From Sphaerolaimus hirsutus (Eukaryota; Nematoda; Chromadorea; Monhysterida; Sphaerolaimidae): 64,000 nt of DNA. The stretch spans positions 12,909,832-12,973,831 of the forward strand of contig OZ038458.1 of NCBI GenBank assembly GCA_964036195.1, written 5' to 3'. Below are positions 9,601-36,600 of the stretch, one piece after another. Under the pieces are notes generated by a model. That model was not told where the DNA came from. It saw only the letters and a list, made by a program, of their open reading frames with translations, and did no database searches. Each line of letters starts with the position of its first letter. The stretch's first letter is position 1. A program made the translations under genes and the position numbers.

Positions 9601-12600
9601 TAGAAACACCTTGCTGTATAACCCCAACAAAAAAAATCACCAACCTCTATCCCCACACGGGGCAATCTCGGCCGCATACACCTCCCCATACAGCATGAAG
9701 TACGGCTTGTAGAATATGTTGCGCACCAGCAACCAACTCCATTCCTCATCGGGGTAGGTGACCGACTGGCGCACGATGCCGAACGCGATCAGCACCACCA
9801 GCAGAATGGTGATGATGTAGGTCATGTTGAGCACCTGCAACGGTATGATTTGAGGGTTAGGGCAGTGGAGAACTACCGTATTTTCTCGAAATACTCGCAT
9901 GGGGTTACTTGTTCCGCCAGAAATTTTTTCAAACTCCACATATTTATACAGAGGTAGCAAAATTCAATAGTAACAGAGATATTTTTATTAGCGTCTATAG
10001 ACATCAATATATAAGTACATAGACGCTGTTATACGTGTCCTAATACAACTTATTCATTGTTTTGAACATGTGTCCTGCTTCACATGGACCACCAACTGCA
10101 GTTTTGTCATATAAATATATATTATCTTAACACCGATTTCTGCTGGAAGTATTTCGAGGTGTGGTCAATTCGAGGGGGTTGATTAGAGGAATACTCAAAC
10201 AGCAGTGTGTAAACGCACCATCTTCCCCACCATAGTGATGTAGGGTCCGAGCCTCGAGTGGACAGTGAGAACGCCCAACAGCCGAAGCCACCAGAGCACC
10301 ACGTCGAATGCATAGATCACTCTGCCCGTCTGTCTAGTGTCCTCGTAGAGCCGCAGCATGAGCCCGATTAGAAATACAGTGACGGCAAAGGCGGTCAGTG
10401 CATTCCAGTAGTTCGAGAGGTACAGCGACATTTTCGCTGTTAACCGCTTTGGCTCGCACATCACCAGCTGAAATGTGAAATTTATATTTAGTAAACTTAG
10501 CCCGGGTAGTTAAGAAAAATCGCTAAAATTAAATGACAAATTGGTTTAATTAGTTGATTTGGACAAAATTAGTTAATAGAAAACATAAATACAGCACTGA
10601 TGCACTGACAACTTGTCACTCACCCTCCTCAGCTGTTCAAGGCCAACGTTGACAACGTAAGCGATGACGAAAAACTCTGCCACCGAGGGGTTCACCGGTG
10701 TGCGCACCAGGCATACAAACGTAAAAACGCCCAGAAACAGCGCGTAAGACAACGCGAATGCCCAGAACGTTGTGATCGGAGCAACGTAGAATTCGTAGAA
10801 ACGTTTGCGCAGGGGGAGCACCTTGCCAGCGCCGGGTACGGGCAGAGCCTGCGAAACATTACAGAGCTTACTTTTTTTGTTTGTATATACATTAACATTT
10901 CGGCGTAACAGAAATGTATTAATCAAGAATTAGTGAAATTAGATATTTGGTTTTTCATCCTACCGCAGGGACGTAGCCAGGATTTTTGAGCGGGGGGGGC
11001 GGATTGTATACAGAGCCCGGCGAACGGGGGGGGCGGCGCCCCCCCCCCCTAAAATTTAACCCCTGTGGTAAAGGAATGGCGCCTTGGCGCCAGCGCCATT
11101 CGTAGGCGCCACGCCATGGCGCTATTGGCGTTGGCGTTAGCGCCAAATACTGCTGTACGTGTATGTATTTTACATACATATACAGCGACGGCGACCCATT
11201 TTGAGCCGTTTTTTTGTCCTAAACTATAGGTATCAAGGAAAAATACTGACCGGCAATGAAATGCGCGCTTGCGTGCAAAATTTTTCCGAACTGCCGACAA
11301 AATCGCTTTACGGAAGTGCCATTTCTGGCATATTTTTTTGTCCGACCCGGGAAGGGGGGGGGGCGGCCGCCCCCCCCGCCCCCCCCCCCTGGCTACGTCC
11401 TTGTCCTACCGTATTTACTCAAATAATTCCCCCGGGGAATTATTTTTTCGTCAGACATTTTTGAGGGGGGAACTATTCAAGGGAGGGAATTATTCAAGTG
11501 GGGGGATTATTATTTCCTCAAAATTTTTAGCCATGTTTCTATCACACTAAATACACATCCTGTTTCCATTGGTAGTGCACACTTGCATCTTTGAACACCC
11601 AATGTACTGCATTTGAATTCAGTGAATCAAACCACACACAGCTCTTTTGCTTGGGTTGACTTCATCGATTGTTTTTGAAATAAATGTGCATTAACTACCT
11701 TCCATCATTGGGGGGGGATTATTCAAGTGGGGGAATTATTTTTTCCTCACCCGCCTAACAGGGGGGATTTATTCGAGTGGGGGAATTATTCAAGTGGGGG
11801 GAATTATTCGAGTAAATACGGTATTTTAAAATTACAATTTTTTTGCCATTTTCATTTCATTTGCGACTTTTTTACATTTACTGTATTTCAACACAAACCC
11901 CTAACACCGCACTGCCCATCTCTGAGTACGAGAAGCGGCACCGACCTTTCTGTTGTCCGCATTGTAGGGCGCGTTAGACTCGGCGTCGCCCTGCTGCCCC
12001 AGCGGCGCCGAGGCCAGGTCCATCGCGCCCGTGATCAGCTGTCCGCTCGGGTCGGTCATTAGGCAGCCAGGCTTCACGTCTGTGTTTATAGAATTGTTAC
12101 GTCTTGTCACATATTTACACATTCAAGACGCTTACATACAGAAATGGAAGTGATTAAGAAGACCCCGGCAAGCAAGTGAACCCCGAAAATACATCGTGTT
12201 AATCGACTTGATAGTCACCTGTTAAGGCACATGCTAGCCTCGAAAAACTCAAGTGAAAGAGGCGCCACGCCACAGCATAGGCGGTCAACTGAGCTCAATT
12301 TGACAAATTTGTTTTAAAAGTTTCCAGTTGTTTCCTAGCTTCAGTTGACCGGCGGTCAACTGCGTGCGCAGCCGCTCTATATCAGAAAAGCGCGCAAACA
12401 ACACACTGTAGCTCGTAGTGGAGTACATAGACTGTCTGGCATCCCTATCCTTGGCGTGGCCGGGCCCGTTCCGGTACCTAACTTGGTCGTGCTGCGAGTT
12501 GCCCAGGTTCACCGCGTTGACTAATCCGTGTTCGCGCGACTGCGGCGCGCCGCCCTGCACACTCAGACCGAGCAGACCGGAGTTGGACACGTCGCCAGGC

Positions 12601-15600
12601 GTGCCGGGCGGCTGCCGCACCGATGTCTGGTGCATCAGACCTGCGCGCGGTGAGCGACAAGGCATAGAGGCTGCTTCATGCATTGAGACATTGTAGAGGT
12701 GTCACAGTTAGCGATGGAAAAGGCACCGGAAAAGATGGCACCGCATTGCACCGGCACCGGCGGCTTAAAACACTTGGAAAAACACGGTGCCACTGTCTAT
12801 ACTCTGGTGCACCATACAACAGACTATTATGGCACCGGAACTAGTGGGGCACCACAACAGCACCGCCGCCTTCCCATCACTAGTCACAGTCACGGGTGGT
12901 GCGCAGCACAGACAAATCCTTGGTGAATGGAAAATCAGATGACCGTTGTGCTACCCAAGCACAAACCCAACGACGGGGAAATATTGCAATATGCAGAAGT
13001 ATGTTTAAATTTGCATCATTTTGTTGCAGAATGAATATTCAAACTACTCATACTTACTTTTTGTTGAAAATAAAAATTTACGTCGAACGTATTAAACAAG
13101 GTAATCGCAATGCGAATAAGTCCGTTCAAAACTGAAAATTTTCCAGCATTATTTCATTTGAGTATAGTGGTTTAATTAGCTTCTGCCAAAAATTAGTGCC
13201 GAAAATATCGTTCATAAGCCACCCGAAACAAGGTAATTATCATAGCAACCCTAGGCCTCCCCATCAGTGCAAATTCAAAAAGCATAACGTTCCGCGAGAT
13301 AACAACAAACAAGCATGAACGAAAACAAGACAAGACTACTCACAACCGTCAACTCACAACACGCACCTGGTCTAATCGACTGTTTCCGTCGAGTGAACAC
13401 CCGTTTGAGTGGATTCATGCTGCGCTTGGACCGGCCCGAACCCACCGAGTCGTCGGAGTCGTTCGGGTTGGCTGGGGCCATGGCGTTGGCGGCCGCCTCG
13501 TCGAAGTTGCTCTCGAGGTCGAATGAACCGTCGCTGTCGCTGTCGGAGCTGCTCGTCTGGTTGCCGCCCTGGCGCCGTTCCCGCTCGCTTTCTGTGGTGC
13601 GAATTTTTAGTGTTCAGCGGGTGTTTTACAGTGATTGTAATTGTGATAATTTACAATATGGACTCCACAGTTGTTAATGTGTATTTACTTTTACTAAAAA
13701 AATACGCATACTCGAGTATCGAGTAAATGCGCATACGCATACTTTGAAAAAGTATCTGTACTCGCATGTACGCGTACTTTTTGAGAATACAGAAAGAGTA
13801 TTTTTGCCATTCGAGACCCCTGCTTTTCATAAAGAATACTCATTGATAGAAAAAACACATGTTTGTTGTCCAGGTTGAACATTCATAATGCTTTTTCTGG
13901 GCAGAAAAGGTGTTTTACTCGCTTTCCTGAGAAAAAATACTCACATTTACGCTTTCTGAAAAAAAGTTTTTAACACTCATTCACTCGCGAGTAAAAGTAA
14001 AAAAAAATTACTTTACGCTTTCTGTACTTGGGGTGAGTAAAAAAATACTTTACTCATACGCATACTTTGAAAAAGTACGTACTTTTACCAAATCTGTAGG
14101 ACTGTTTGACATGTGTAAAATTCATTGAAAAAAATGATAGTCCAAAAATGCATAATTTCAACGCAAAAATTTTATAGGTAAACCATCACACGCACTGTCA
14201 TGCTCATCGGCTGTCTGCGGCTGGTTTTTCAACTCTTTTTTGTTCTTGAATTCCAGCGCCATGATGAGCAGCGGCATGAGCAGTGCGCCGATAACTTTCA
14301 AATTGGAGTGTCGGCGTATCTTCAAGCCTCCGTGCCACAAGTCGGCGAGTAAAATCTGCGGCAGGAAAAGCTCAATTGTCCTCTGCTTCGGTTTAAGATG
14401 AGAACAAACGAATTAGCTTTAAAAAAATTCCTGAAGATTTCTAAAAACTCGAACCTGGCAACAAGGATGGGCCAGAAACTTCCTATGATTTGCAACTACA
14501 GCCAGTGACAGGCAGGTCTGTCTGCCCCAGTTGCGCAGTTCGTATGTGAGCAGACGTAGTGTTTCATCGTCGTCTGTGGAGTAACATTGTTCCAATAGCT
14601 CCAGCGACAGCCGCAAAAATTCTCTGCGAATATTTACGTAAAATATAATAAAATACTGGATGCATGGAAAGATAAATGGGGATTCAAAGTCGCACCAAGT
14701 ATTTTGAATTTTGAATAATATTGGAATATTATTAAATATATCAAAAAGTTGACTCCTCAATTGTATTTTATTATACTATTGTCTTTTCACCGTATTATCG
14801 TTTTCATTTTGCAGAAATTGGCAAGCCAATATAAGCACCGACTCTGCATTCTGCCTGAGCTCGTCGCACAGCTCCACCTCGAGGTAGTCGTCGGCGGCCT
14901 CGTTGGCCAGACTCTTGTACAGCTTGGCGGCCACCAGCGCCTTGGCGATCGCCTCCTCGCCGTGCGTCCACATGCAGCGGGCCATCTCCTGCCGCTTGGT
15001 GAGCACGGCCCACACGAGCAGCTCGTTGAACGGGTACTTGAAGTCGGGCTCGCCGCCGCGCCCGCCCGCGCCTGACCAACGAAAGACACGGTGCATTTGG
15101 AGGAACCGTGTGGCTTTTTAACCGGATCGCATAACGATTGAGAACGAGGGGGCTACAAAACGAAATACCGTATTTCCTCGAAATACCCCCAGGGGTTTAT
15201 TTTTTCATAGTGCAAATTTTACTGGAGGGGATAAACGGGGGGATTTCGAGCGAAGGGTGACATTAGTCTAAACAGGGGTATTTCACGGGGGATTTATTAA
15301 TTCATAGGGGCCATTTTGAGGGGGTATTTCGAGGGGGAGGGGTAATTTGAGGAAATGGGGAGTTTCATTCTAAAAATGCATATATCCAAGTTTTTCGATT
15401 TTTCAAAATCGCATTTTAAAGTTTGACGCTGGCCCGACGGCGCTATGTTTGGGGGACGACGCTTGCCACGCACTTTTCAGATAGATCCGACATTTCTTTA
15501 CAATTTTTGTAATCACAAATTTTGTTGGCCGGGAAATATTTAGGGAGTTATGTGAGATTTTGTAAGTCACCCAAAATTGGGAACAAATCTGAACATTTGA

Positions 15601-18600
15601 AATTAAATGTTAAATAACTTCTTAACGGTGCATCGTAGGATAAAACGAATCACATCACTGCAAAGCCCGTGTCTAAAAGTACCTCTACCTAAATTTTCAG
15701 ATCAATATATGCACGCATATTTGATTTATAGTGCAAAATAGATTTGGAAATTCACGTATGCATTTTTGGAAATGAAACTTTTTATTGTATGGGAATTCCG
15801 GCCAGCTCTTCGCGGCCGCGCCGAAGCACGCGTGCATTTTTGTAAATGAAACTATTTTTTGGATGTGTGCACTTATGAAATGAAACTCCGGCGGTCCGAG
15901 ATGGATATGTGCACTTACGAAATGAAAGTCCTGTTTTTCATAGGGGATCTGAGATGGATACGTGCACTTTCTATGTGAAAATTGTAATTTTTCTGAAAAA
16001 CGGTACCACTGTATCTCGGGAACGAAATGGACTATAACGCTGATTTTTTTTCTAAAATGTGAAAAACTATTCGTGGAGGTCAAATCCAAACTCGATTTTT
16101 CTGGATTTGGCGCTTGGGAACTGGGAACTTTTAGAATGGAACTCCCCAAATAGTGTACGACCCGTACCTCCATCGCCATCGTCGTTAGCAGCATCTGGAT
16201 CCTTGACGCTGGCAGTGGTGCCGTTGGGCTGCTGCAGCGCCGACTTGAACAGCGTGCTGAGCGTGCGCGACGGCTCCTTGGCGGCGGCGGACACGGGCGT
16301 GCCGCCGCTGGTGTTGATGCCCGCGCTGGGCACCTGCGTCATCGACGTCGACGTGGTGGCGTTGGTGCGCGATTTCGCCTGCGATTGCGAACTGAATTAC
16401 AAATGTGTTCTCAACTATTGACTCGGTTTTAGTGTCAGTCTATCAACAATGAGGTCAGCAGCAGCGTCGTGTTATTTGGTTTTATTTGATTTGTAGCAAG
16501 TTTTTGTCACACTCGGATTTCTACGAACACAGACAGGGCCAAGTTGTAGCTTGAGACAAACACAGCGTTCGTGAAAACGAAACAACAAGTAAAAAATTCG
16601 TTTTGATATACACGTACAACAGTTTTAATTTGCTTTTGTCGAATTTCTTTGCTCTGTGGACGCATACATATGTTTCTCTCAAGCTGGAACCAGGCCCAAG
16701 TTGCAATTGCAAATCCACCCACTTATCGCATAAACAACATCCGTTTACCGTAAGTCAATTAGGTACACATAAATCTTTCATCTGTAGATGCATTGTAAAT
16801 GTATGTAGGATAGGTATTTGTTAATGTCTATCCATTTTTCTTAGGTATATTCATATAGACCAAGGACGTATCAAGGGGGGGGGGGGCGGGGGGACTGCAG
16901 CCCCCCCCCCCCCTTCCCGGGGTGAGACCCAAAAAGTCCCGGAAAATACATATTTTCCTATATATTTTCCGATGTTTCTTAAAAATTTTGCGCGCAAGTG
17001 TCATGAATTTTCACCGGCTACTTTTTACTCAACCAAATTCCACTATGGCAAACTGCCAAGTTTTACCGATCTCACACCTACTTGTTGGATGAGTGACAAA
17101 GTAAGGCAACGGAAAAGCGACTACCGATTGAATTCGCAACGCACAATGGTGAATTCACCGAAGTGAATATCACAGGTGTACGCTACGTCAATTAAGTTAG
17201 CTTTTTAGCGAATGGCGTTTTTATCAACGCACCAGCAATTAGTTGAATGTCTAATTTACACCAAGGGGTCCGAAGTTTTTAGAAGAGATTTTATTTTAGG
17301 CGATTTTTTAGACTCAGAATTCACACATTTAGATAGAACACAGGGAACACACTGAGAGCGAGTTTCTAACCAGCGGCACAAAACCTTCGAAAAAACTCCA
17401 AGAAAATGAAACCGAAGCAATTTCGACTGAATCGACCCCTACTCTAAATTACGGTACGCTTTTATACGCAACAACATAAGCCAAGTCCAGACAACACTTC
17501 CACATACCACGAGAAGCATGCTTACAAACGACTTTACAGACACACGGCATTTTAAAACGGGCATACCTAAAATTATTCACGGCGTCAGTTTACAGGATAC
17601 GTCGATCAACTACACAAAAACACAAAGAATTCACGCGCCAAAAATCGGGTTGGGAACAAGAGCGAGGATAAAAATAGAAAAATAAGAAAATGAACGAATG
17701 CGACAAGAATAAAAAGAACAGGAAAAACACACGAGATACTGTAAAAACTTGTTTTAGCGCGAAAAAAATGGCGGGCGATTCAAATTTTACTCAGCGAACT
17801 CTACCGAAATCCCAAAACCACCTCCACGAACGGGGAAACACACAGCAATTAGCGAAACAAATAAACACGCGAACAGTAATCCCATCAGCAAAAAGAGCGT
17901 ATAATAAACGAAAATGACGTTGATATCCAAAGCGTAAGAAGCACACGTATTATTAATGCACAACGAAAAAATGTCGTAAGTGGGATAATCCATGATAAGA
18001 TTAGGATACCGGTAAGGCGAATGGAATTAATTTCCACACTGACTGTCAAGGAAAAAATGAATTACGGTACCGTTTTAAAGACTCTTAGCAGAAATTCTAT
18101 CAGAGTGATTAAATAAATACGCACTCAAATCAGATCACCTTTACACTTATCAAAATATTCGGGGAAAAAACAGGAAAAACAAGCGGCTTATTATTTCATC
18201 TCTTTGTATAATAAAGATCAACCACGAAATTTGCATAAATTCCTAAATATCCAAATGTCAAGTTATCAGTTTTCTAGGGGAAAGGGAAATACAAAAAAAA
18301 TCAATCTAGGATTAGGTAGATAAAAAAAAATAGCGAAGTTGCAAACGTAAAATCAAATAAAAATTAACATACTCGAGTTTTACCTATTCCCTACCAAACC
18401 TAAAGTAAAAATGAATATGAAGTCGGTATAACGCTTAACAGAAATACGAACGCAAATGATTGGCAACTTGAAAGTTTATAAATTTCAATCTTTGTAGCTT
18501 AAATGCATGTTTGGATTGCATGACTTTTTGAAGTTTAAAACTAAAAACAAAACAAACTCAAGTGAATCCACTGCCACATGCCGAAACGCAACAGCCATTA

Positions 18601-21600
18601 ACTACCGAAGGCACTTATCACGAAAATGACCACTCTCGCTGCTACACCACTCATTCTGCTACCAGAATATTAATTAGCCAGCCACGGCTTTTTGATCCCA
18701 TACGCACTGTGCAAAAACCACACCCCGACAATACCGAACTGCTCAACTCACTCAAAAATAGGTACACTTGTCACTGTATGGGTGCTTGTTTCGATGAGAT
18801 CGGCGGACTGGGCTGTTCTCACAACAAGCCAAGGGAGTAGGCATTTAGACATGCGATCATGCCTGTCGAGTTAGACTCGATTCTTTTAATTACCTCTCAT
18901 TTTCAACACCAATCATCATCGCACCTCTATAATCAGTGTACCTTTGTAAAATCGCGTGTAAATTAACTTTTGTTTCCCAATCCGGAAATGCAGGAATGCA
19001 CAGTACATACTAGATCAATAGCCGCGACCCTCATGTCAAAAAAATGCAACGAAAGTTAGTCAAAATCCAACCTATGTGCCCTCAGTTATCACTGACCATT
19101 CACGCACTACGACACGTAACTGCAGCGTCACTCTTTTTACTTAGAGAAAATAACTGAAACTTTGTTATGCAATCCAAACCGCTAGTAAAAAATTACTTTT
19201 AAATTAAACTGTCACAATTAAAATTGTTGCCAATTCACTTGTCTCACTTTCTTAAAAAAAACTACCTAATTAAAAAAATCTAAACAAATAAAAACAACTA
19301 TTTACATCACAGCGTCAACTTTGTGTCAGATCCTCAATACCTCCAATCCTTTCCTTGGCCAGAAAAAACACACATAACACAATGGGGCACCGGAAAAACG
19401 GAAATGCACGTTGCCACGTTGCCAACGTAGCGCAGCGACGTAGCCGAAAACGTCAACGCCACGTTCACCCACCGAATCGCCCAAAACCATCGTCGAAGTA
19501 GAACTGAAATGTTTAAATTATTGTAAGCTCGGAAGTGTAAACAACCCTCTACATAAATTCATTAAGTGAACTATATATACATTTATACTTAAAATTTTTG
19601 AAATTTTACAATTTTTGGACACCCACTTTTGCTCACAAACTCCACCAGCCATACATTTTACCTCCCGGCTAAAATCGAAGCACAGCAAAACTATTAAAGA
19701 AACGAATTGAACTAAATTCCCGTTTTTTGAGAACTATTTTAAACCAATTTTAAATTTGTTGACAACCATTACGCATTTTTCCACGCTTTGTTGAGAACAC
19801 AAAAAAAACTTTTGAACCGGTAAAACTCAATGAAAATTCAATTTTCAATTCAACAAAAGCTCAATTCTACTGGTAAAACGTTCGCTCTAACAAAAACGAC
19901 TAAATACAAAAACAACCAAAACAAAAAAAAAAAAATTTCCTGTACACCTAAATTACCATTACTCCGCTTCCATCTCCTCCTCTGGCTCCAAACCTGCCAA
20001 AGTTGGAGTCACTGGCGGGGGCGGACTCTGTTCCTCTTGCGGTGGCGGTGACGCGCCAACTACAACAACCTGAACAGGTTGTTGCAGCTGCTGTGCGGCC
20101 ACTTCCTCAGGCTGCTCCTGCTCCTGCTCATCTTCCTGCATGGGCTCAGCAGATTCATTGGCCTCCTCCTGGATGGCGTCCATTTGTCTTAGCATCTGCC
20201 GGTCTGGGCTCATGGACTGTTGCTGTCGCTCAGCGTCCAACTCGGTGTTCAACTCGCCCGCCATTTGAATTAACTCATCCAATTTTTCTCCAATAATTGC
20301 ATTATTGGCCTCTTCAGTATCTGGCTCTGGTTCTTGCTCTTGCCGTTGACCTTCCATTGCCGGTTCCTGCTGTTGAGCACCTTGTTCACTTTGCTCCTGT
20401 TCCACCTCCATCACTTCCTCCTCCTGGTGCGTTTTCTGTTTGTGTACCGGTACGGGCGGCGCGTGTTCAGACTCCGAGGCCGAATCGGTCTCACTCGATC
20501 CCGATTTTGACGAACCCGACGAAGAACTAGAGGAAGAGGAAGAACTCGACGAGGGAGAGCGACGACGACCGCGATACCGACGCCGAGACCGAGAACAACT
20601 CGCTTTTTCATCCGCGCGCGGCTGAACTTTCTCTGACTCCTCCTCCTGCTCTTCGGGCGGCAACATTTGCACGTCTGGGGAATCGGGAGCGGGAACGACA
20701 TCGGCGTCTGGCTGAGGGGACGCTCGCTGTTCGCTCACATCCACCTCCTGAACTTCTTCCGGCGACGGCGGAACCTCATTTTCTTCTTCTTCTTGCACGG
20801 GCGGAGCGGGTTCTTGCAGATCGACCGGCGCACTTCTCCAGTGGCCCAGAAACCTAGCCAACGGGTCACTCTCCCACAAATGTCGCTCGTGGTACGCAAA
20901 AACGCGTCCCTTTCCTAATTCCACCGCCACAAAACGCCAGAAAAATTCAGAATGCAGCACGGTAGCGGCGTTCATGATCACGACTCTGGCCGTTTTGGCG
21001 CGAGACGTGGCCACGTTGCACCGCTCCGGCATCGCCAAAAAGCCAATTCTGTCCATCACATCGCGCTCGCGCTGCGACGGGTGTCCAGTAGCGTCCACGC
21101 GCGGCGCGCTACCCCTCACACATGACACAATCACCACGTGCGCTTCACGAGCTTGCGCTCGATCAGCAGTGATGACTTTTTTCCGCCAAAACGCTGGGGT
21201 CGCTAAATAGCCAGGGAACCCCTCACCCCCTAACAACTGCGCCCAGCTCAATCGCACCAATTCGTCAATCACTCTTCTCTCCTGCGCTGAATAGAAACAC
21301 ACAATCAGCAGCGAATCGGCGCTTTCTAAATCACTCCACGGAACGACATTCTCGCCCTCGCTGTTCAGCGCCAAAATGACAAATTGCTGCACAACGCGCA
21401 CCACAATGTCTACCTCCGTCAAATTTTTAACAGACACGCCCTCGCTCGTTTCAAAACCCATGTGCACGATCACAGAAGACAAAGGCACCTGATCGGCACC
21501 GCAAGCCATGAGCGGCAAAGTATCTCGCCACTGACTGTATTCGTGGAACGCGCGCAATTGGCCATCGTACGCAGCGACTGAATTCGCTTGAATCAGCGCG

Positions 21601-24600
21601 TCGTGGCCGCGGAAGACAGTCTCGAGCTTCAGAATTGGGCACAACACACCTTCCACCAACCTGTTGATCAGCGATGGATCAGGTTTCAGGATCGGAGCGA
21701 TCCATGAATGCGGCCTGACCATTCGGGTCAACTGCTTGCTATCGCCAAACAAAAGCACCAAGCCATTGTGGGGGAGTCGAGCGTTTGAAACAGCGCCAAA
21801 AATCGCAGTTTCATCCGCCAAAGACGCCTCGTCCACAAATACCGCGGCATATTTCAAAACTTGCAGTCGCTTATCGCGCGATGAATCCAAGGTCACATGG
21901 ACTTGGCCTGGCTGCAGCACATTCAACACCACCTTATGCAACCTAGTAGCCACCCTAACGAGGCGTCGCATTTCGCGCTTGTAAATTTTGCCCCACACCT
22001 GGTTGTCATCGACAAAGCCAGCCGCGGCCCCCCACGCCTGCACGCCCTCCTCTTGACCATCGTCCAGTGGCACCAATTCATCCTCGTCGTCTTCGTCGAT
22101 GGACAAACGAACCAAAGGCAACTGCGACCGAATGGCTTCGAAAATGTCGGCGGGGTGCTGATTGTTCGCGATGATCTCGTTCAAAGTGTCACAAATATGG
22201 CGTTGAGCGGTAAAGCGTTCATAAGCAGTTAGCCAGTGGTCATTCAATCGGATCACATGCATGGGCATGTTTTGCGCGATCAAATTCAGCAGCGGCAATT
22301 GCTGGAGCGTCATATCGACGTAGCGATCGTCAACTTCCAACAATGGACTCAGCACGCGAATCGCGAAAGCGGCGCGCACCTGACAAAAACGCGCATAGCC
22401 AGGTGTTTGAAAATTTGGCTTATCATCCATCGCAGTCCACCTCTCCCTACTGCGCAGCAAAACTTCCACGACCGTTTCCAAATTAGGCAGACCAATGTTT
22501 GCCAAACTTTGCAACGATCGTCTGGCAGACTCATCAGCGGCCGAATTCACACTGCAAGTAATCATTGTGGAGTGGTAAAGCGCATTTTTGTTTGCATCAG
22601 AGGGCAATTCCCTCTTCAGCGGGTTCGGCGGGTCATTTTTCTCAGTAAATTTGAACGCAACCGCGTACGCACACTGACTTTGCACAGTCGTTTTACCGGA
22701 ACCGAACGGTGAATCACACATCAACAATAGCGGCGCAGTTTTTCGCACAGACTTGATAACTGACGCAATCACACGCCCCTGCCCCTCCTGCGGCCGAAAA
22801 TCACCCTGCTGCGCTTGCAATAAATCTTCGCATGTGCCTCTGCGCACCTCGGCATACAACCCGTCAGACTCAATTTTTTCGAGCGTGCGCTGCCAATCAG
22901 TCTCAACTTGGTTCAACTGCTTGTGCAGCACTACCGCCATTTTGACCTGGTCTTCCACAGCGAGCATTCCGGTGTTGCTCTCGGTTGGCCGGTAACCACT
23001 AGGCCCCATTATACACAACCACTCCAAAATTTCCATGCAGCCATTGTAGCTAGGCGACAAAGCGGAACCGCGCACCATGTAATCGCAATTAGGCAGCAAA
23101 TGCGGCGACAGCGCCTGCGGCACCAACACATCCGGTTTGGCGACCAGCTGCACCGCCTCGGCAGTGATGTCGGCGCTGACCGTACGTAAATTTATTTGCG
23201 GGCGGCCAGTCAGAGCGCGTTCTTCCCCCCGGGGATCAGCTTCGACGATTTGTAGCGACGACATGGGCGAAGTAAAATTCAACATGTAGCCCTGCGCCTT
23301 ATTCCTGTGCCACTCGGCCGTGTCGCGCATCGCAGCAGCTGGATTCAAATGCACGCGCTCCCACCTAATTATCGCAATTAATCCCCGCGGCCCATTTTGC
23401 CAAGTCACCTGCGCGCGCACCGCTTTCGCCCTAGTCGCAGTGTATCGCAAATGCGCTTCGTGACACACGTTAGCGGCGGCCAAAAAGATGGAACGAAGCT
23501 GCAGCTGAGAGGTGAGGTAATTTCTATTCATTTCGCCCTTCCACTCCATACCAGCCTCAATTTGCCGCGCCGAAAAAATACGCACGCCATACGCATGACC
23601 CCAATAAAAGTTGTTGACTTTGCCGGCGTCATCAAAAGCGTGATATTCTACATGCGCCACACCTAATTGTCCGGCGTGCGGGTGTATGTCACTTTCCATG
23701 ACATTTTCGCTGTGCGCAAAAATTAACTTTTCAGGGCCCGGATCCCGCTCGTCGGCGCCTTTGAAGGGGGTTGCACTAATGTACCGCGAAGGGGTGAACG
23801 CTGCCCTCAAACGCAAGTATCTCCACTTGGCCGGATAAGGATGATATCCTTCGCGATTTTCCTGTCCTCTCTGTGAAATTTCCGATGCTGGCTCATCGAC
23901 GGAGAGGTCAACCTGTCCTTGCGAAACAATAACAACAGGGCGGCCCAAAAACAATGGCATTTGAGCGTCATTTTTCATAATTGTGACGCCTCGCAATTCC
24001 CAATATTTCGGATTGGCGCTAACCCTACTGATACCAGTCGCGACAAAATGCATGCCGTGGCGGACAAGCGGCAAAAACATGTCGTAAGCTTCGTTAGCCT
24101 CGCGATATTCCCTCAAAATTTTCTGCACCGACCGCTCACGAGCGCGCTCCGCTTTGTTGACCGAATAGGTGAAAAAGGGATAAGCCGTTTCCGCTTCCGA
24201 CCACTCCGGATAACTTTCCAAAAGCGCCTGCGCATCGCCGTCGAAACGAATGTGGCATTGATAACTGGTAGGACGCTGCTCGTTACCGACGTGAACTCGA
24301 TCCACTATTCCCGACAATTTCTGGTTGATGACAAATTCAGGACAAGTCGATCGGGCGTTTCGAGGAGGATTGTAGGGCAGCGGCGGAATAGTGTCACCGC
24401 CCTGTTTTCCATGAGAAGTCCACGACTTGAGCGGCGCTTTGGCTATGCGCCCGCCACGATACGAACTGGAACTCGCTCCATACCCACCCATGGGTACGCC
24501 ACCCGAACTAGTCATATTTCACACTTCAAAGTAGAGCACCGGAAAACACAACTTATTGCTACTTAAAATGCGCCACCCAGAATGTCGGCACCGAAATGCA

Positions 24601-27600
24601 CGAAGGTCTGAGCGACACCCTAATCGAAAAGTTGCGAATTATTTTCAACGCACTACGTTGAACGTATTGCGCCAAAAATAATTTTTATTTTGTTGCGAAA
24701 CGGGCGAAAATGAGAATGAAATTAAAGAACAAATTTAGAACGAAATAAATGCGATGGTATGAACAACTAACGAATTAAACTTGCGGCGATAATTAGAAAC
24801 GAACAATTAATAACACCGATAAAATTTTCGCGCTTTACCTTTTACATAAAGAATAACTTTTTACCTCAAAATTACCTAGCGCACAATCAAAAATACCAAA
24901 TTTGCAACCCCGAACTCACCACGAATTGACGGTCAGAATTAAACGCGAATAATCCAAAAATAAATTTTAATTGAATTTTCGAACGGAATAATTAACTTGA
25001 AGCACTTTAGGTTGAAGAGCGGAAAATCTCGGGGTTTTTTAACCGAAAATCTGCGAATAAGTGGGATTAACTGGCTCATTTGTCAATTTAACGCGATCAG
25101 CATGAACGGTATAAGTTTTCTTAGACAACCTATTAAACACGGTCACAATGGGATGCACATAATCTAAACATTCATACAGGCCAATATAATGATGCGTGAA
25201 TTTCTTAACGCGACCTAACTTTCGAAGAATTCGGGGCGAATAAACACGAACTGATTGACCGGGCTTCAAATTCAAGCGGCGCGCACTGCGATTTGCATAA
25301 AAACACTCTTTTTCTTGCGCGCGCTGTAAAGCCGAATGCGCGGCCGTGCGGACGTCCGAAAGTCGCGCGTCTAAATTTGACACAAAAGGACTGTACGCCG
25401 TCGGCTTATCGGTCTTATCGGTGCCATTTCCCGTCGGCTCGATCATACGCTCCCAAAGTGACGGAGAATTTGATCCAAATAGCAACGCATATGGTGTCAC
25501 TTTCATAGAGGGGTGCATAGACGTATTATACGCATAGACAGCGGCGCCTAAGTGTTTGTCCCAATCCGAATGCGAGCCATTCACATAATGTGAAATTATT
25601 TCCATTAAGACTCCATTCCTACGCTCAACCAAACCATTCCCCTTTGGCGTATAATTGAAACACTTATGCTGCACTGTATTTAGATAACGCAGCAATTCCG
25701 CAAAAATGCCGCCAATGAAGCTTGGTGCATTGTCGGATAAGATTACAGCGGGCACACCAAAAATCGGTAACACATGTTGCAAAAACGCAATAGCCACAGT
25801 ATCTTGCTTCAAATTAGGAACAGGTACTGCTAAACCAAAACGCGTACATTGATCCACAAATACCAATACATGCACATTCCTTTTTTCGGTAATTGGCAAT
25901 GGCCCTACTGCATCAATCGCAATAAAATCACCAGGAAACTTAGCGATTTTCCGGCTCTGAATTTGAGTTTTCATTGAGCGGCGCAATCCTTTCTTCGCGT
26001 TGCACGAAGGGCAAGTAGAAACCCATCTAGCGCATTCTGGACGCATATTTGTAAACCAAGCAAATTCGCGCAATCTTTCAAACGTTTTCATCACACCTAA
26101 ATGTCCAGCAGTGGGATGATTATGAGCCAATTCTAACACAGTGACAACTAGTGACTGGGGAATGCACGCAGGGTCGTATTTCCTTTCACCCACTAATATT
26201 GACGGGTCTGCATCACGCCTGACAACATCAAATTGATCAATGAAAAACGGTGGGGCCCTACGCAAAGTAGATTCCTCGCACATACGACGAATTGTAATTA
26301 TATACGGTTCTTCTTTTTGCAAACGCGACAACTCTTCAATTGGAGTAATGGGAGGAGGTAAAGCATCGAGTTTTTCCGGTTTCTTAATTAATTGAACAGA
26401 ACGGCGGCCACCAGCCATTAATTTAGGCGCATCGTCACTTTTGGGCGGCGATTTCAAAGCATTTTCAGAATTGGACTCCACCTTCTTTTTACTTCGCACA
26501 CGCATTGTCATTGGATGCGGCGCCCGCACAGTAGCAACGCTTGCCACTGGCAGTTCAGTAGCTACCGTAACTAACGGTTCCAAAGACTTCATTTTCGCAT
26601 GTTTCAGCCAATTTTGAGCAGCAGCCAATCGCGCCATGGCCTTAGCTACCGCTTGACAAGCCAAATGTTCCTCAGATGTTAACAACGCCATTTCCTCAGT
26701 CAAAATTCTCGCCAATTCATCAACAGGTATATCAAATGCATATTCTTCAAACGCTTCGTCCAAATTAACACGCTCATCAAATTCAACGGGTGCATCACGC
26801 CGGCGCGACAAAGCATCAGCCAATTCGTTACTTTTCCCACGCAAATGCTTAAAAGTAACTTGATATGATTGAATAGCAAGCGCAAATCGGTGCAAACCCG
26901 TATGGGGATGGGTTTCCAAATTTGGATTTTTCACCCATGAAATACTTTTCGCATCAGTCCAAACTTCAAACGGCCGGCCCGCTAAATAACAATGCCAATT
27001 GCGTATGCTCTCAAAAATAGCACATGCTTCTTGCGTAATTGCAGGCCATCGGGATTGCGCTTCAGAAAGTTTTCGACTATAAAATGAACACGCATGCAAA
27101 GCGGCGGCAGGTTCAGCGCGTTGTACTAAAATGCCAGCTAATGCAACTTTAGAAGCATCGGTAATAATTATGAACGGTTTACTGGGATCAGGATACTGTA
27201 TACAGGGACTTTCAGCCACCATCACTTTCAACTTATTAAAAGCTTCCAAAGCGGCGGGGTTCGCATTTAAATCTACGGGAGTACTTCCGCTATACTTTTC
27301 AGTTCCTAATTCAGTTTTTGTTCGAGTTAAATTAGACAAAGGAGCGGCATATTCAGCACATTTATGAATTAATCTCCGGAAAAACCCAACGGCACCCAAA
27401 AACGCTTTAACCTCACGCACACACACAGGTAGCGGCCAGTCACTCAAATACTTTCGCTTATCATCCGGTATACAAATCCCTTCACGCCCTACCATATAAC
27501 CCAGGAATTTAACAGCAGTTGTGCGCGCGAAAAAACACTTTTTGGGGTGTATTTTAAAACTGCTACTTATCAAACGCGACAAAACCTGACTTATATCACT

Positions 27601-30600
27601 TAAATGATCTTCCCATGACCTACTGTAAATGAGCAAATCATCTATATATACCAACACATTTCGATGCAATAATCCAGCCATTGTAACTTCAAAACAGCGC
27701 TGCGCTAAAGCCGGGGAACACTTTAATCCCATCGGCAAGCGTTTCATCTGAAATTGACCAAAACAATTACGAAACGACGTAATATGTCTATCATCCGGAT
27801 GCAGCGCAATGTTGTAAAACGCTTGATTGATATCGACACTGCTAAAAGTATTTGCAACTGTGCAATGACTCTATTGTATCGTCTAATCTGGGCAGCGGAA
27901 ATTGGGGAGCGTGAACTACTGCATTTAATCGTCGATAATCTATCACCATGCGCTTGGCACCATCCGGCTTAGTAACAACTAATGTCGGCGCGCAGTACGG
28001 ACTCGTACTGTGTTCAATGACGTCATGCTCAAGCAGGCAACTTAAATGCTTTTCTAAGTACTGCTGGTCATCCAAACTCAACCTATACATTCGACACGCG
28101 ACCGGAATTTTACTAGTCAACTGAAGTCGATAATCAACCAATTCACTGTATCCCAAATCATACTTATCCCTGGCGAAAGCATCCTGATGAGTCAAAATTA
28201 ACTCTTTTAATTGCTGGCGCTTAATTTCGTCCAATTCAACCGGTACTTCAAAATCCATTTCCCTCCCATCGGCACAAACCACTTTCATAGTCGTATTCGC
28301 CGCTTTTGAAGGTACAGTGCCCTTCGTTGGTACTTTTTCCTCACTAGCTTCAAGTATAGTATCGGTAAAACTCATATCACGCTCGCGGCACTCTCGCACC
28401 CACTCAGCAGGCGGATCACCTCGACGCACTTGTAAAACACACTCCACTGGCTCTACGATGGCAATTTTCTGGCCCACCTGCAACTTTACTGGCACCTCAG
28501 TCACATTAACACACCTCACCGGAAATAATTCACTCGCGCTTTCATAAACAGCATTAGCTGCAAACACACCCGTTTTCACATGAAATTCGTTCAAAGGCTC
28601 AATCGCAAACGTCAATTCATCAATTGGTTCAGATAATTTCGCACTAATTATCGTTTCATGCCGCGGCTTAATTTCAGTCGGTTCAGTCACAACTGCATAA
28701 ATATGCCGTTCTTGCACTACAGGCGACGGGTTGTCAAAAGGCACAGTCAACTTTTTACGCGCATCGCCACTCTCAATTCGCAACTCACGCGCAGGCATAT
28801 CAATAACCATATGCCTCAATACATCAGCGCCTAATAAAATGTCGTCCGACAAACCGCTAATCACCTGAAATACAATAGAAAACGCTTTCCCGGTAATCAT
28901 CACTTGAAGTTCCAGCTGACCCTCAATTTGCAATTTGCATTGAGACGCGCTTTGCAATCCCCCCACAGGCGTGACCTCATCAAACGCTATGCAATTATTT
29001 CGATGCCTAGCCAACACCAGCGGGCTGCACAATGACCTCATCGCACCTGTGTCCAACAGACACCTTTTGTATTCATTCCCCTCAATTTCTACCGTAATCG
29101 ACGGACTATAGTAAATTGGCACGAGTTCTTTACGCTTAGCCGTAATACTTTTGATGTTCGCAATTTCTTCACTGGTCAGCGTGACTACATTCACCTTTTC
29201 CATGACGGCAGAACCTTTAGGAACGCGCAGCGGCGGCAAACGCTTAAATCTACTCACTGGCGTTTCTTCAATATCGGCGCCATACCCTGAACTGTCAGCG
29301 CTAACTGGATTTAACTTTTGCGGCGGTGTCACGGGGGTCGCACCCCTTGCAGGATTGCGCCTATTTTCTATCGCTAACATGCGATTTAATTGAACCCGCA
29401 ACACTCTCATTTTTATCCAATCACACACTGTGAACACTAAATACAACACCAGTTCACACAAAGCGGGCAGAATATATCTCAAAAACACAGAAGTGCACAT
29501 TCCAGCGATAAATCCCTCAAGAAAATTTCGCACGGTCAAAATCCACTCATCTGACACTCCTTTTTTCTTAACAACGCCACCACTTGGAACACCCAGGGCG
29601 TCAACACTTGCAAAAAACGTAAATAGACAGCACAGGAAAAACACACGGTTCAACACACTGGGCAACATACTCGGTTCCGACCACGTTCGGTACAAGGTTG
29701 GCACGCTCGCTTCACAATAATCGGACAACACATACAATTCAGAGTCAGATGACGTTCGCGACAAACTAATGTCCGGCGGTTCACACATAAATGTATGCAT
29801 GGTCAATTCTAGCAGCGCTTCTAACTTAACATACGTCAACGTGTCCTCAGGGTCATCATGCGGATGCTCATCAGCATGCTCACAAAACCCGCTTATATTC
29901 AACCCCTGCAAACCCATGTGTTGCAATTGAGCCCACCACTTTGTTCGAAAAATCATGCTATCTAACGAACGCGCATAAACCCAAGGCATAATCCAAGCCT
30001 CTCTTTCGAGCATGAATTGATGTTCTTGCGGCGTTATTTCAGGCGGATTGCATGGATCCTCTGCTTCCTCATCTGAACTTTCAAGACCCGGTACAACCCT
30101 AATCATGCGCACATATTCCTTACTTTCTTGCACGCTGCGTGCATGATTCACTGAGTTCGCAGACACGCGCGTCGGATTTAACGCAGTCAATTCAGTTGAC
30201 GGAGGGGCCGCAATGGCCATTTGCGATGATTGAACTTGTTGCACTGGAGACCAACTAGTAGTTGACACTTGCGCGGGAGGGGGATAATACAGGTAAGGCG
30301 GCGCTTGCATGGAATATACAGGTTGCTGTGCAGAGCGCATCATATTCGCTGGACCTCTGAAATTATTCATCGGTCGCTGCGGCGGCCCGCGCCGAAAATT
30401 TCTAAAGCGCGCTCTTTCCTCTTCTGTCAATTTAGGACAATCAGAGCGAAAGTGATCATCTGCCCCACATTCATAACAGCCCTCATCAAATTTACGCGGC
30501 CTAAATTTGGAAACTGGTTTCGCAGCATTGTTACCTATCAATTGCTTTTCCAAGTCAACTAAACGCTTATCCTTATCCTCTAACTGCCTAGAAAGTTCTT

Positions 30601-33600
30601 CCAATTTCACTCGCTGTTCCTCAAACTTTGGATTTTCCGCCGCCGCCGGAACGGGCGGGGAATTTCCGAAAGCTCCCGCACCCCCTAAAGCAAAAATTCG
30701 CTCGATTACCGAATTGGTGGCTTCTGAAACTAATTCAGCGTTGGATTTTGACTTTTTCTTACCACCCACTTTGTCCTTATCAATTTCCAGAAAACTTTCT
30801 TGCGTGCGCGCATTATTGACTACGTCTTGAAACTTAGCCCCAGCAGTAATAGATACATTCCTACGGATGTCAGGATACAATCCACTGACAAATTTCGCCA
30901 CTGCCATCTTTTCGCGTTCAATTTTTGAAAGTTTCGGAAAAGCGCGTTTTATAATCTTCTCCAGCCGCACTGACCAATTTAACACATCTTCATCTTCGCC
31001 CTGCTCACTACTAATCACTTCCCTTTGCGCATGATGCTCCGAAATGGGGTTAGTATAATAACGTTCCAAAGCGTCCATAAACTCCTCATAATCCAAATTA
31101 ATCAATTCACTCTTATGCGACATGTAAATCGAACGCGCGCTGTCACGCAAATAAACCGGAAGCAGCGATTTTCGCTCATCCGTCGGAATTTGCAACGCCT
31201 CACAAACTGCGTCCCAATTTTTACGCCAATCAGCAAATTTATCATCAGCGCGCCCCTTAAATGGTATCACCTGTCCAGTAAGCGCGGTCATGGCAGCAGC
31301 ATAACCCTCCCTACTAGTAGCAATCATACTCACAGCAGGTATAGGTGGTGTGGTAGCGGTAGAGCACCCTCCCGAATTAGAAACAGCGCTAATTACAGAA
31401 TTAATCGCTTGCATATCAGGCTTTTCTAAATGAATATACTCAGCAAATGCATTAATCGCGTCCGCAATTTGACTCACATCATTTCGCAAATTATAGCAGT
31501 CAACACCTAACTTTACTAATGACACTAATTTTTCGTCATTATCACTCATGTTCCCATTTTCCAAAGAACTCATGGGTCGCTGATTATACAAATAAGCGGC
31601 AATACTCACCGTTTGAGTCACAACCTGACTAAGGTTCCATTCTAACCCCTGAACCGAATTCCCCACTATCGACGAATTAATTTGGTTCAAAGTCAAATTT
31701 TTCGCTTGAATCAACAATTGCACCACATCGGGACCCGTGTTCACACCACTACCGCTCGCATGCGCCATACTCAAGGTAGAATACCGGAAAAACACACACT
31801 CACTCGACGACTGGGTACTCGCGCTTCGGTACCCGGCACTCGCGCTTCGGTGCCCTAACTTACTTTGCCCTACGGTCGGGAATGGCACCTCCGCACCCGC
31901 ACTTGGCTTGACTTGCTCACAGGTCGGGAATGACTCCTCCGCACCTCTTTCAGGGACCGGTCCTTCCGCGTCCACCCAGCAGTTGACGTCAAAGTCGTTA
32001 GGTTCGTCACTCAACTCAGCGGTTCCCGGTTCAGAACAGTGCGCGTCCGTACTGAACTGAACCGATTTCGATTTTTTCTTACTTTTCCGCTTTTCCCTTT
32101 TTTGCCCACTAATAATTTCGTCAGTTTCGCGTCCCAAAACAAAAATATCCGTGCTTATCGGTTGCGTCGATCGGGTAGCCTTCCGTTCCTCCAGCCGGGC
32201 GGTGGTTCGTTTGTTCTCACCAGCGATTGTCAAACGGTGATCAGTCGCCTGAACTCACTGGGAATATTAAACAAACCACTCGCTGCTACCAGTTGTCATG
32301 AATTTTCACCGGCTACTTTTTACTCAACCAAATTCCACTATGGCAAACTGCCAAGTTTTACCGATCTCACACCTACTCGTTGGATGAGTGACAAAGTAAG
32401 GCAACGGAAAAGCGACTACCGATTGAATTCGCAACGCACAATGGTGAATTCACCGAAGTGAATATCACAGGTGTACGCTACGTCAATTAAGTTAGCTTTT
32501 TAGCGAATGGCGTTTTTATCAACGCACCAGCAATTAGTTGAATGTCTAATTTACACCAAGGGGTCCGAAGTTTTTAGAAGAGATTTTATTTTAGGCGATT
32601 TTTTAGACTCAGAATTCACACATTTAGATAGAACACAGGGAACACACTGAGAGCGAGTTTCTAACCAGCGGCACAAAACCTTCGAAAAAACTCCAAGAAA
32701 ATGAAACCGAAGCAATTTCGACTGAATCGACCCCTACTCTAAATTACGGTACGCTTTTATACGCAACAACATAAGCCAAGTCCAGACAACACTTCCACAT
32801 ACCACGAGAAGCATGCTTACAAACGACTTTACAGACACACGGCATTTTAAAACGGGCATACCTAAAATTATTCACGGCGTCAGTTTACAGGATACGTCGA
32901 TCAACTACACAAAAACACAAAGAATTCACGCGCCAAAAATCGGGTTGGGAACAAGAGCGAGGATAAAAATAGAAAAATAAGAAAATGAACGAATGCGACA
33001 AGAATAAAAAGAACAGGAAAAACACACGAGATACTGTAAAAACTTGTTTTAGCGCGAAAAAAATGGCGGGCGATTCAAATTTTACTCAGCGAACTCTACC
33101 GAAATCCCAAAACCACCTCCACGAACGGGGAAACACACAGCAATTAGCGAAACAAATAAACACGCGAACAGTAATCCCATCAGCAAAAAGAGCGTATAAT
33201 AAACGAAAATGACGTTGATATCCAAAGCGTAAGAAGCACACGTATTATTAATGCACAACGAAAAAATGTCGTAAGTGGGATAATCCATGATAAGATTAGG
33301 ATACCGGTAAGGCGAATGGAATTAATTTCCACACTGACTGTCAAGGAAAAAATGAATTACGGTACCGTTTTAAAGACTCTTAGCAGAAATTCTATCAGAG
33401 TGATTAAATAAATACGCACTCAAATCAGATCACCTTTACACTTATCAAAATATTCGGGGAAAAAACAGGAAAAACAAGCGGCTTATTATTTCATCTCTTT
33501 GTATAATAAAGATCAACCACGAAATTTGCATAAATTCCTAAATATCCAAATGTCAAGTTATCAGTTTTCTAGGGGAAAGGGAAATACAAAAAAAATCAAT

Positions 33601-36600
33601 CTAGGATTAGGTAGATAAAAAAAAATAGCGAAGTTGCAAACGTAAAATCAAATAAAAATTAACATACTCGAGTTTTACCTATTCCCTACCAAACCTAAAG
33701 TAAAAATGAATATGAAGTCGGTATAACGCTTAACAGAAATACGAACGCAAATGATTGGCAACTTGAAAGTTTATAAATTTCAATCTTTGTAGCTTAAATG
33801 CATGTTTGGATTGCATGACTTTTTGAAGTTTAAAACTAAAAACAAAACAAACTCAAGTGAATCCACTGCCACATGCCGAAACGCAACAGCCATTAACTAC
33901 CGAAGGCACTTATCACGAAAATGACCACTCTCGCTGCTACACCACTCATTCTGCTACCAGAATATTAATTAGCCAGCCACGGCTTTTTGATCCCATACGC
34001 ACTGTGCAAAAACCACACCCCGACAATACCGAACTGCTCAACTCACTCAAAAATAGGTACACTTGTCACTGTATGGGTGCTTGTTTCGATGAGATCGGCG
34101 GACTGGGCTGTTCTCACAACAAGCCAAGGGAGTAGGCATTTAGACATGCGATCATGCCTGTCGAGTTAGACTCGATTCTTTTAATTACCTCTCATTTTCA
34201 ACACCAATCATCATCGCACCTCTATAATCAGTGTACCTTTGTAAAATCGCGTGTAAATTAACTTTTGTTTCCCAATCCGGAAATGCAGGAATGCACAGTA
34301 CATACTAGATCAATAGCCGCGACCCTCATGTCAAAAAAATGCAACGAAAGTTAGTCAAAATCCAACCTATGTGCCCTCAGTTATCACTGACCATTCACGC
34401 ACTACGACACGTAACTGCAGCGTCACTCTTTTTACTTAGAGAAAATAACTGAAACTTTGTTATGCAATCCAAACCGCTAGTAAAAAATTACTTTTAAATT
34501 AAACTGTCACAATTAAAATTGTTGCCAATTCACTTGTCTCACTTTCTTAAAAAAAACTACCTAATTAAAAAAATCTAAACAAATAAAAACAACTATTTAC
34601 ATCACAGCGTCAACTTTGTGTCAGATCCTCAATACCTCCAATCCTTTCCTTGGCCAGAAAAAACACACATAACACAATGGGGCACCGGAAAAACGGAAAT
34701 GCACGTTGCCACGTTGCCAACGTAGCGCAGCGACGTAGCCGAAAACGTCAACGCCACGTTCACCCACCGAATCGCCCAAAACCATCGTCGAAGTAGAACT
34801 GAAATGTTTAAATTATTGTAAGCTCGGAAGTGTAAACAACCCTCTACATAAATTCATTAAGTGAACTATATATACATTTATACTTAAAATTTTTGAAATT
34901 TTACAATTTTTGGACACCCACTTTTGCTCACACAAGCGCGCAATTTCTTCCCCATGCATTGTAATTTCAACGGATCGGCCCCTGCGAACCAATATCCTCG
35001 GAAATAACCACATCTTTGCGAATTTCGCTGCATATGTATGCATTTTTACATAACATATAAAGCGGCTCCTGGCGCTGGCGCCAACGCCAATAGCGCCATG
35101 GCGTGGCGCCTCTGTATGGCGCTAGCGCCAAAACGCCTTTCCGTCCCTATATAGGGAAAAAATTTAGGGGGGGGGGCTGAGCCCCCCCCCCGTTCGCCGG
35201 CCCCCGTAAACAAGCAGCCCCCCCGCTCAAAAATCCTGGATACGTCCCTGAAACATACATACCTAATTAATTTTAATTCAATTTCATGTTCTCCTATATC
35301 CTGTGTAAAACATTAACGAGATATGAACATATCTTGCTGAGTCGACATGGTTTTTCACAATTGGGCCCACACACACTAGTTTACGTCGCAAAATCGTGCC
35401 AACTGAATGTCAACTAAATATTACAAAAGTTTTTCAAAAGCATCACACTTAGCAGAAACAATGAAAATTAAATGTCACGAAAAATTTTAACTATGCTCTA
35501 TTACATAGGAAAATTGAAATCACACAATTCAAAAAAATTTAGTTGAATTCAGTTGACAAGAATTTTGATGTATACTCTATCACGTGAGCGTGTGGTGGCT
35601 GCGAAATCACGGAGTAACGGTAAACTTATTTCTTGGTGATCATCACAACACAACGCAACGCAAGCGTGTGTGTCCAAACACAGTTATAAGGAAGCGAGGT
35701 GGAATTTGCAATTTGCAACCAATGTTATTCCCGTTAATGCAGTTTCGCTGTTAGACATGATATCGTCATTAATAACGTTTTTCTTATCTACATATTTATT
35801 TACAATCACAGCAAAAGTTTACAGCGGGCAACACAGGACCTTTCTAGCACTGACAAATTTTTCGGCAGCAAAGGGCAAGCAATGTGTTAATACCATGTTT
35901 CTTCTAATAGAACGACATCAACATGTCTTTTCGTGGCCGCGTGTATTGATTATATTTACTCGTAAAATACCATGTTAGCGGCCAAGTCCCTTCAAATATC
36001 AAATTCCCTTTGATCGGGTGGTGCACCTCGATTTTTTTAAACTGAAAATGTGACACTTTAAAAAACGTCATAAAACAGTTTTTTAGGTACCTACATAGTT
36101 GCCTCCTCTGTCCTTTGCACTCACGGTACATTCTACAGCATCAGATAAATGGCCCAATTCATAGCTACTTTTATTCAGCTTAGGTATTCATAATTGCTCA
36201 TCCGCATTCATACAGTTAGGTAAAGTTAAACCACATTCATACACCGTGCCATTGTTAGAATAAATACCTAAAGCTAAGCCCTGAACGTCCGTGCTTTTCT
36301 ATCAGATGAAGTCTTTATGTTTTTGTAGGGTAGGTGCCACACAAACTGGATTAAAAACACTGTTGAGCAGAAACTATGTTCAAATGCGGATTCCTTTCCG
36401 ACATTGCACTTGAAAATTGACTTGCTACCTAAATTAAGCTAAAATCGAGTTGACACTAGGGATGGCCAAGGGTTTTTTTAAATGTAAAACGTTTTATTTT
36501 TTTAAAAACCCGACCATCGAAACCGTTTTTTAAAAAAAAACCTTGACCAAATTTTTTTGTACTAAGCACTAGGTATTTTGCAATTTTTTACGCGCAAGCG

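Follow-up and report, generated by a model that had tools for sequence, protein, structure and literature searches.

A Ty3/gypsy element of the nematode Sphaerolaimus hirsutus with a Upf1-group helicase open reading frame in the env position

What might a helicase gene do inside a long terminal repeat (LTR) retrotransposon? The question is raised by a 64,000 bp stretch of the genome of the nematode Sphaerolaimus hirsutus (contig OZ038458.1, positions 12,909,832 to 12,973,831), here termed the window, whose sole LTR element is a Ty3/gypsy element of 17,934 bp (∼17.9 kb) on the minus strand. Gypsy elements are closely related to retroviruses, and the slot after their integrase is often held by env-like open reading frames (ORFs) and often marks the element's way of life. 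In the S. hirsutus element this slot holds a long ORF with the motifs of a superfamily 1 (SF1) helicase. That the composition is as it appears, i.e., a gypsy element with an SF1B helicase gene in the env position, is highly probable. The overall explanation proposed, that a large gypsy element carries a Upf1-like helicase as an accessory ORF which would act on the element ribonucleoprotein, is tentative and held at somewhat less than even confidence.

The helicase frame and its place in the element

The helicase ORF (19959..24515, minus strand) is intact, starts with ATG and encodes 1,518 amino acids. Stop-free runs in shuffled DNA (200 Markov-1 shuffles of 19638-25038) reached at longest 194 codons on average and never more than 358; therefore, a frame of 1,518 codons is not a chance occurrence. 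Along the protein the motifs are GSGKTT (residue 605), VDEAS (894), GDSKQL (924), FRG (968-970), SCVR (1131) and VATSRAK (1168). A preliminary description, made from the DNA letters only, had named five of these (all but FRG) and had placed the intact frame on the coding strand of the element, downstream of integrase and before the 3′ LTR, within clean LTRs and a target duplication; each of these statements was borne out, with the five motifs present in order. Residues 605-1174 (20994..22703, minus strand) form the helicase core, bounded by Walker A and motif VI, and a tail rich in E, Q, S and P covers about residues 1214-1518 (19962..20876, minus strand). Within the tail there is a short RS/basic and serine-run stretch near residues 1309-1333, and the Pfam SR-25 model matches residues 1296-1408 below its cutoff.

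The surrounding element has the paired LTRs and short target duplication of an LTR retrotransposon. The 5′ LTR (32294..34932) and 3′ LTR (16999..19637), both on the minus strand, are direct repeats of 2,639 bp that differ at one position, have TG...CA ends on the element strand, and are flanked by the 4 bp target-site duplication CAAG at 16995..16998 and 34933..34936, ends and duplication both being read by eye. Because the LTRs are nearly identical the insertion is young, and the element is thus recently inserted. The LTRs are 12,656 bp apart. A leader (32254..32293, minus strand) has a possible primer-binding site, with TGG... two bases past the LTR; the window contains no tRNA genes. A purine-rich but short stretch precedes the 3′ LTR.

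The coding region outside the helicase consists of two frames. One (27842..32254, minus strand, first ATG at 31768) encodes gag, CCHC, protease and the first part of the reverse transcriptase (RT). Pfam matches in this frame are PNMA (E 1.3e-5, at cutoff), zf-CCHC (E 0.0028) and gag-asp_proteas (E 0.048), the latter two below cutoff, and the protease motif LLDTGA is at residue 1059. The other frame (25039..27870, minus strand) encodes the remainder of RT, followed by RNase H and integrase, with matches to RVT_1 (E 6.7e-18), RT_RNaseH_2 (E 4.7e-26), Integrase_H2C2 (E 1.2e-15) and rve (E 4.8e-9). The order protease-RT-RNase H-integrase is that of gypsy elements, the protease match being weak. 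The two frames overlap by 29 bases (27842-27870, minus strand) within the RT domain. This frame change, which the preliminary description does not mention, is probably damage to this copy or else a misassembly, since RT would be a very odd place for a programmed shift. Between integrase and helicase is a spacer (24516..25038, minus strand) of 523 bp with a GC content of 0.358 and one ATG, and the sequence TTATTCGCAG was seen by eye near the end of the integrase frame. From the helicase stop to the 3′ LTR there are 321 bp (19638..19958, minus strand) with a GC content of 0.312. No Pfam model for dUTPase or Env matches the element proteins, and there is no second copy of the element within the window.

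Family of the helicase and other retrotransposon helicases

Profile comparisons point to the Upf1 group. Pfam AAA_12 matches helicase residues 948-1182 (E 1.4e-19), AAA_11 matches the core alone (E 1.8e-5; 25.1 bits, just under the cutoff of 27), and the NCBIfam model for the IGHMBP2 family matches at E 4.5e-9, far under the model cutoff. Two MkoA models of PADLOC also match, the better at 1.8e-12. At E up to 1 there are 11 matches to sequences of solved structures; ten are NAM7/UPF1 or SMUBP-2 and one matches the tail only, the NAM7/UPF1 chains being similar to the helicase at E 0.014-0.24. Walker A, DEAx, GDxxQ and the R..R of motif VI, which with AAA_11/AAA_12 domains characterize Upf1-like SF1B helicases, are all present in the protein, as are the two domains, AAA_11 just under its cutoff. 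The ORF is thus, on sequence grounds, a divergent Upf1-group (SF1B, Upf1/IGHMBP2-like) helicase and not UPF1 itself. It shares core motifs and the AAA_12 domain with both UPF1/NAM7 and IGHMBP2 (SMUBP-2), but it differs from them in its weak similarity, its long acidic tail and its location in a transposon, and no zinc domain was found in it.

Two narrower identities were rejected. UPF1 ortholog was set aside on account of the zinc domain: residues 1-560, which hold six cysteines, have no Pfam match at E up to 5, the UPF1 zinc domain included, in a search where HMMER filters discard most matches above about 0.1. Three PDB matches for these N-terminal 560 residues (E 3.4) were taken as chance. 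A viral-type SF1 helicase was rejected because the viral family PF01443, to which the helicases of insect long interspersed nuclear elements (LINEs) belong, matches neither the full-length protein (E up to 0.1) nor the core (E up to 5). The term "UPF1-like SF1 helicase" in the preliminary description therefore stands for the Upf1-like SF1 group and is weakened for UPF1 proper; the comparison with Upf1-group and viral SF1 profiles that it had proposed favours the former.

Relatives of the helicase are few and distant. With residues 1-1250 as query, none of 7,051 candidates in the protein collection was a match at E up to 0.01; with residues 870-1210 there was one among 4,422 at E up to 10, P0122 (E 4.3e-3), a protein of 879 amino acids from a contig no longer than 4.8 kb, which is itself close to UPF1 (E 2e-31). 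Over the RecA part, the helicase shares 26% identity with each of the two nearest relatives compared, P0122 and a protein of MT835511.1. Among viral contigs none of 43 stretches was confirmed, nor any of 600 when an alignment served as query, and prokaryote contigs gave none of 110; the patterns behind the counts of 43 and 110 drew partly on the low-complexity tail, which makes these weak tests. One of 50,697 phage records matches the helicase (26%, residues 889-1203), as do 16 of 72,556 plasmid records at E up to 0.1, each spanning 6-15% of the query. These phage and plasmid matches are ordinary distant helicases and no evidence of origin. PHROGs has no helicase match at E up to 1.

The pol region has more relatives. 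Scoring of 7,991 candidates yielded 397 relatives, and gypsy-type pol proteins were returned; neither of two viral-contig stretches was confirmed. Identity in the best local alignment with pol is 23-37% among the best 120 of the 397. In an RT tree of 53 rows (the window and 52 of the 120 relatives listed, with no non-gypsy outgroup and with bootstrap values not settled), the element is on a long branch (1.9), joins three rows at 92/46 support and is weakly placed, in no well-supported group.

The open literature searched, which does not extend to subscription papers, preprints or Repbase entries, describes no gypsy element with a Upf1-type helicase, in agreement with the preliminary description, whose author knew of none. 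Insect retrotransposons are reported to encode SF1 helicases in two settings: within the LINEs TRAS and Jockey and, in Aedes aegypti and Leptopilina boulardi, as fusions with Ty1/copia proteins (PMC5563155, PMC6338049). Since SF1 helicases are already known in these insect LINEs and copia fusions, a retrotransposon-borne SF1 helicase is not new in principle. The insect helicases, like that of S. hirsutus, are encoded by retrotransposons and have the full motif set. They are, however, of viral type, nearest to those of virga-like viruses, and form part of LINE ORFs or of copia fusion proteins, whereas the S. hirsutus helicase is a separate 1,518-amino-acid Upf1-group protein after integrase.

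Giant gypsy elements with captured domains offer a second comparison. Burro of planarians has long LTRs and extra domains, as does the S. hirsutus element (PMC6431247). The extras of Burro are AIR1, Smc, MATH, BIR, ankyrin, BCL2, dUTPase, an Env-like domain and, in Dugesia tigrina, midasin, with no SF1 helicase among them; in the available part of that paper the word "helicase" occurs three times, never for an LTR element (PMC6431247). An Env-like or membrane-type region of Burro lies in frame between gag and pol (PMC6431247). At a comparable location in S. hirsutus, in frame between CCHC and protease, a Kyte-Doolittle scan detects two strongly hydrophobic, possibly membrane-spanning segments (29414..29668, minus strand); the scan flags one integrase and one helicase segment as well, and the two segments are thus only a hint. 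In giant gypsy elements of orchids, too, an additional ORF encodes a captured enzyme directed at RNA (PMC9289625). This is a different enzyme, an N6-methyladenosine demethylase, in plants; it is kept in several subfamilies and was tested in vitro (PMC9289625). Extra ORFs of plant elements have been reviewed (PMC7264820), and "helicase" does not appear in the main text of PMC7264820 or PMC9289625.

Host setting and origin of the helicase gene

The element lies in sense orientation in an intron of a TRPM channel gene (about 10600-48700, minus strand). The insertion is intronic, and in an animal genome, because TRPM exons, identified by sequence similarity, match on both sides of it. On the upstream side, exons at ∼45.6-46.1 kb match TRPM3 (E 2.6e-44), and ORFs at 45.6-46.3 kb and at 48.2-48.7 kb have further TRPM domain matches. 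On the downstream side, exon matches to TRPM7 lie at 14.8-15.05 kb (E 2.9e-18) and at 10.6-10.8 kb (E 2.5e-13). The window also contains repeats outside the element. Arrays of a 59 bp unit are present at 37445-38144 (11.9 copies) and 39690-40669 (16.6 copies), with 92% matches; their consensus units look reverse-complementary by eye, and between them is a very AT-rich core (GC 0.257 at 38001-40000). G+C-rich arrays of the 6 bp CGGGAC type are found near the TRPM exons (46865-47026 and 47545-47676), and a 73 nt direct repeat, 81% identical, with GGGGAATTATT-type units, is at 11434-11506 and 11730-11802.

The helicase gene differs in composition from both the element and the host gene. G+C content at third codon positions (GC3) is 0.381 in pol, 0.452 in gag, 0.591 in helicase residues 1-1260 and 0.743 in host TRPM, with bootstrap intervals that do not overlap; the host value comes from 354 codons in four exon pieces of one gene and is a thin yardstick. 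Values at fourfold sites follow the same order (pol 0.44, gag 0.52, helicase 0.65). Correlation with the host exons in codon fractions is 0.52 for the helicase, 0.09 for gag and −0.12 for pol. Relative synonymous codon usage of the helicase core also correlates with that of gag (0.67) and pol (0.52); because of this, helicase codon usage is intermediate rather than host-like. Overall, the composition fits a captured gene that underwent partial adjustment to the element. A host mRNA may have been the source of the captured gene, whose codon usage would then have drifted part way to that of the element.

The same data bear on another history, in which a processed host or foreign helicase gene was transduced by chance into this one copy and has no function for the element. 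LTR elements are known to capture genes by chance (PMC7264820, PMC6431247), only one copy is known in S. hirsutus, its pol is split and the codon make-up of the helicase is unlike that of gag-pol. Against a passenger of this kind, the collections searched contain no close host relative, GC3 is intermediate and not host-like, and on the element strand no poly(A) was seen by eye after the stop. The specific case of a processed gene in sense orientation that brought along a poly(A) tail was rejected, since the stretch after the stop, read by eye, is T-rich and not A-rich on that strand. A mere passenger appears fairly unlikely, but as long as only one copy is known it must be taken seriously as a rival.

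The sharp change in composition at the ORF edges also raises the question of whether the helicase piece was put into an ordinary gypsy element after insertion, or by misassembly. The change is confined to the ORF, because the spacer and the 3′ stretch keep a low GC content like that of the LTR (0.380). In addition, the helicase is on the gag-pol strand, there are no direct repeats of at least 40 nt in 16000-38000 except the LTRs and a minisatellite, and there are no inverted repeats of at least 60 nt in 10000-30000. A nested insertion or chimera is accordingly the least probable of the alternatives and can hardly be credited.

Possible roles of the helicase

SF1B enzymes of the Upf1 group translocate on RNA or single-stranded DNA with ATP. 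The S. hirsutus helicase is probably enzymatically active. The protein would be an ATP-driven translocase, probably on RNA, that works on the element's own ribonucleoprotein. Most likely it would strip or remodel proteins and duplexes on element RNA, perhaps with the disordered acidic tail as a docking arm, and the RNA may thereby evade host small-RNA silencing or decay and stay fit for packaging and reverse transcription. An anti-silencing or anti-decay role is possible but open to considerable doubt. It is favoured partly by analogy with the LINE-borne SF1 helicases of insects, for which weak suppression of RNA silencing has been reported in a plant system (PMC6338049).

Help in reverse transcription is nearly as likely. 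The helicase may assist RT and RNase H in template unwinding, strand transfer or the clearing of RNA:DNA hybrids, an idea also raised for LINE helicases (PMC5563155). The long RNA genome (12,656 bp between LTRs) and the position of the gene beside pol on the same strand are consistent with such a helper. However, no helicase is described for other giant gypsy elements such as Burro and Ogre (PMC6431247, as far as available), and the S. hirsutus helicase is a separate ORF with no RT fusion. Taken by itself, the helper role is rather improbable.

A third proposal concerns nonsense-mediated decay (NMD). The protein may compete with or replace UPF1 and so spare element RNA with long 3′ regions. 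By sequence its fold is predicted to be that of the Upf1 group. However, no CH-type zinc domain was found, this being the domain by which UPF1 binds UPF2, and the RecA part is only about 26% identical to the relatives compared. Protection from NMD had been among the suggestions of the preliminary description, and nothing specific to it emerged, since no zinc domain was found in residues 1-560 and the similarity to UPF1/NAM7 is weak. An NMD decoy or guard is therefore very unlikely, even with the precedents that retroviral RNAs are NMD targets and that Tax of human T-cell leukaemia virus type 1 blocks UPF1 (PMC2925335, PMC5789848).

Several observations weigh against an accessory helicase that acts on the element ribonucleoprotein. 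The element is represented by one copy, whose pol is split, and among the relatives found none was seen to share its pol-helicase order. Some of the motifs are divergent, among them motif V (TADRAQARE), which lies upstream of SCVR at residue 1131. An AlphaFold model of residues 540-1240 from a two-row alignment had a mean predicted local distance difference test score of 31 and is of no use as evidence for the fold. A splice-pattern scan of 24401-25300 gave no match for a convincing acceptor before the helicase; one weak donor-like match is at 34239, in the 5′ LTR. The codon evidence is mixed, as described above. Finally, the silencing suppressors cited as precedent are viral-type SF1 helicases, another group than the Upf1-like enzymes.

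A broader proposal is that in a whole lineage of giant animal gypsy elements a Upf1-type helicase has taken over the place of env and is stably kept as an RNA-remodelling factor against host RNA surveillance or small-RNA silencing. This is doubtful; if true, it would mean that an enzyme class which polices host RNA serves a transposon. If the helicase is only a passenger, the locus still represents capture of a 4.5 kb coding sequence by an animal LTR element. A Upf1-type helicase in the post-integrase slot would tie retrotransposon replication to the class of enzymes that police host RNA, and it would make testable whether such enzymes are turned against silencing or used for copying very long RNA genomes.

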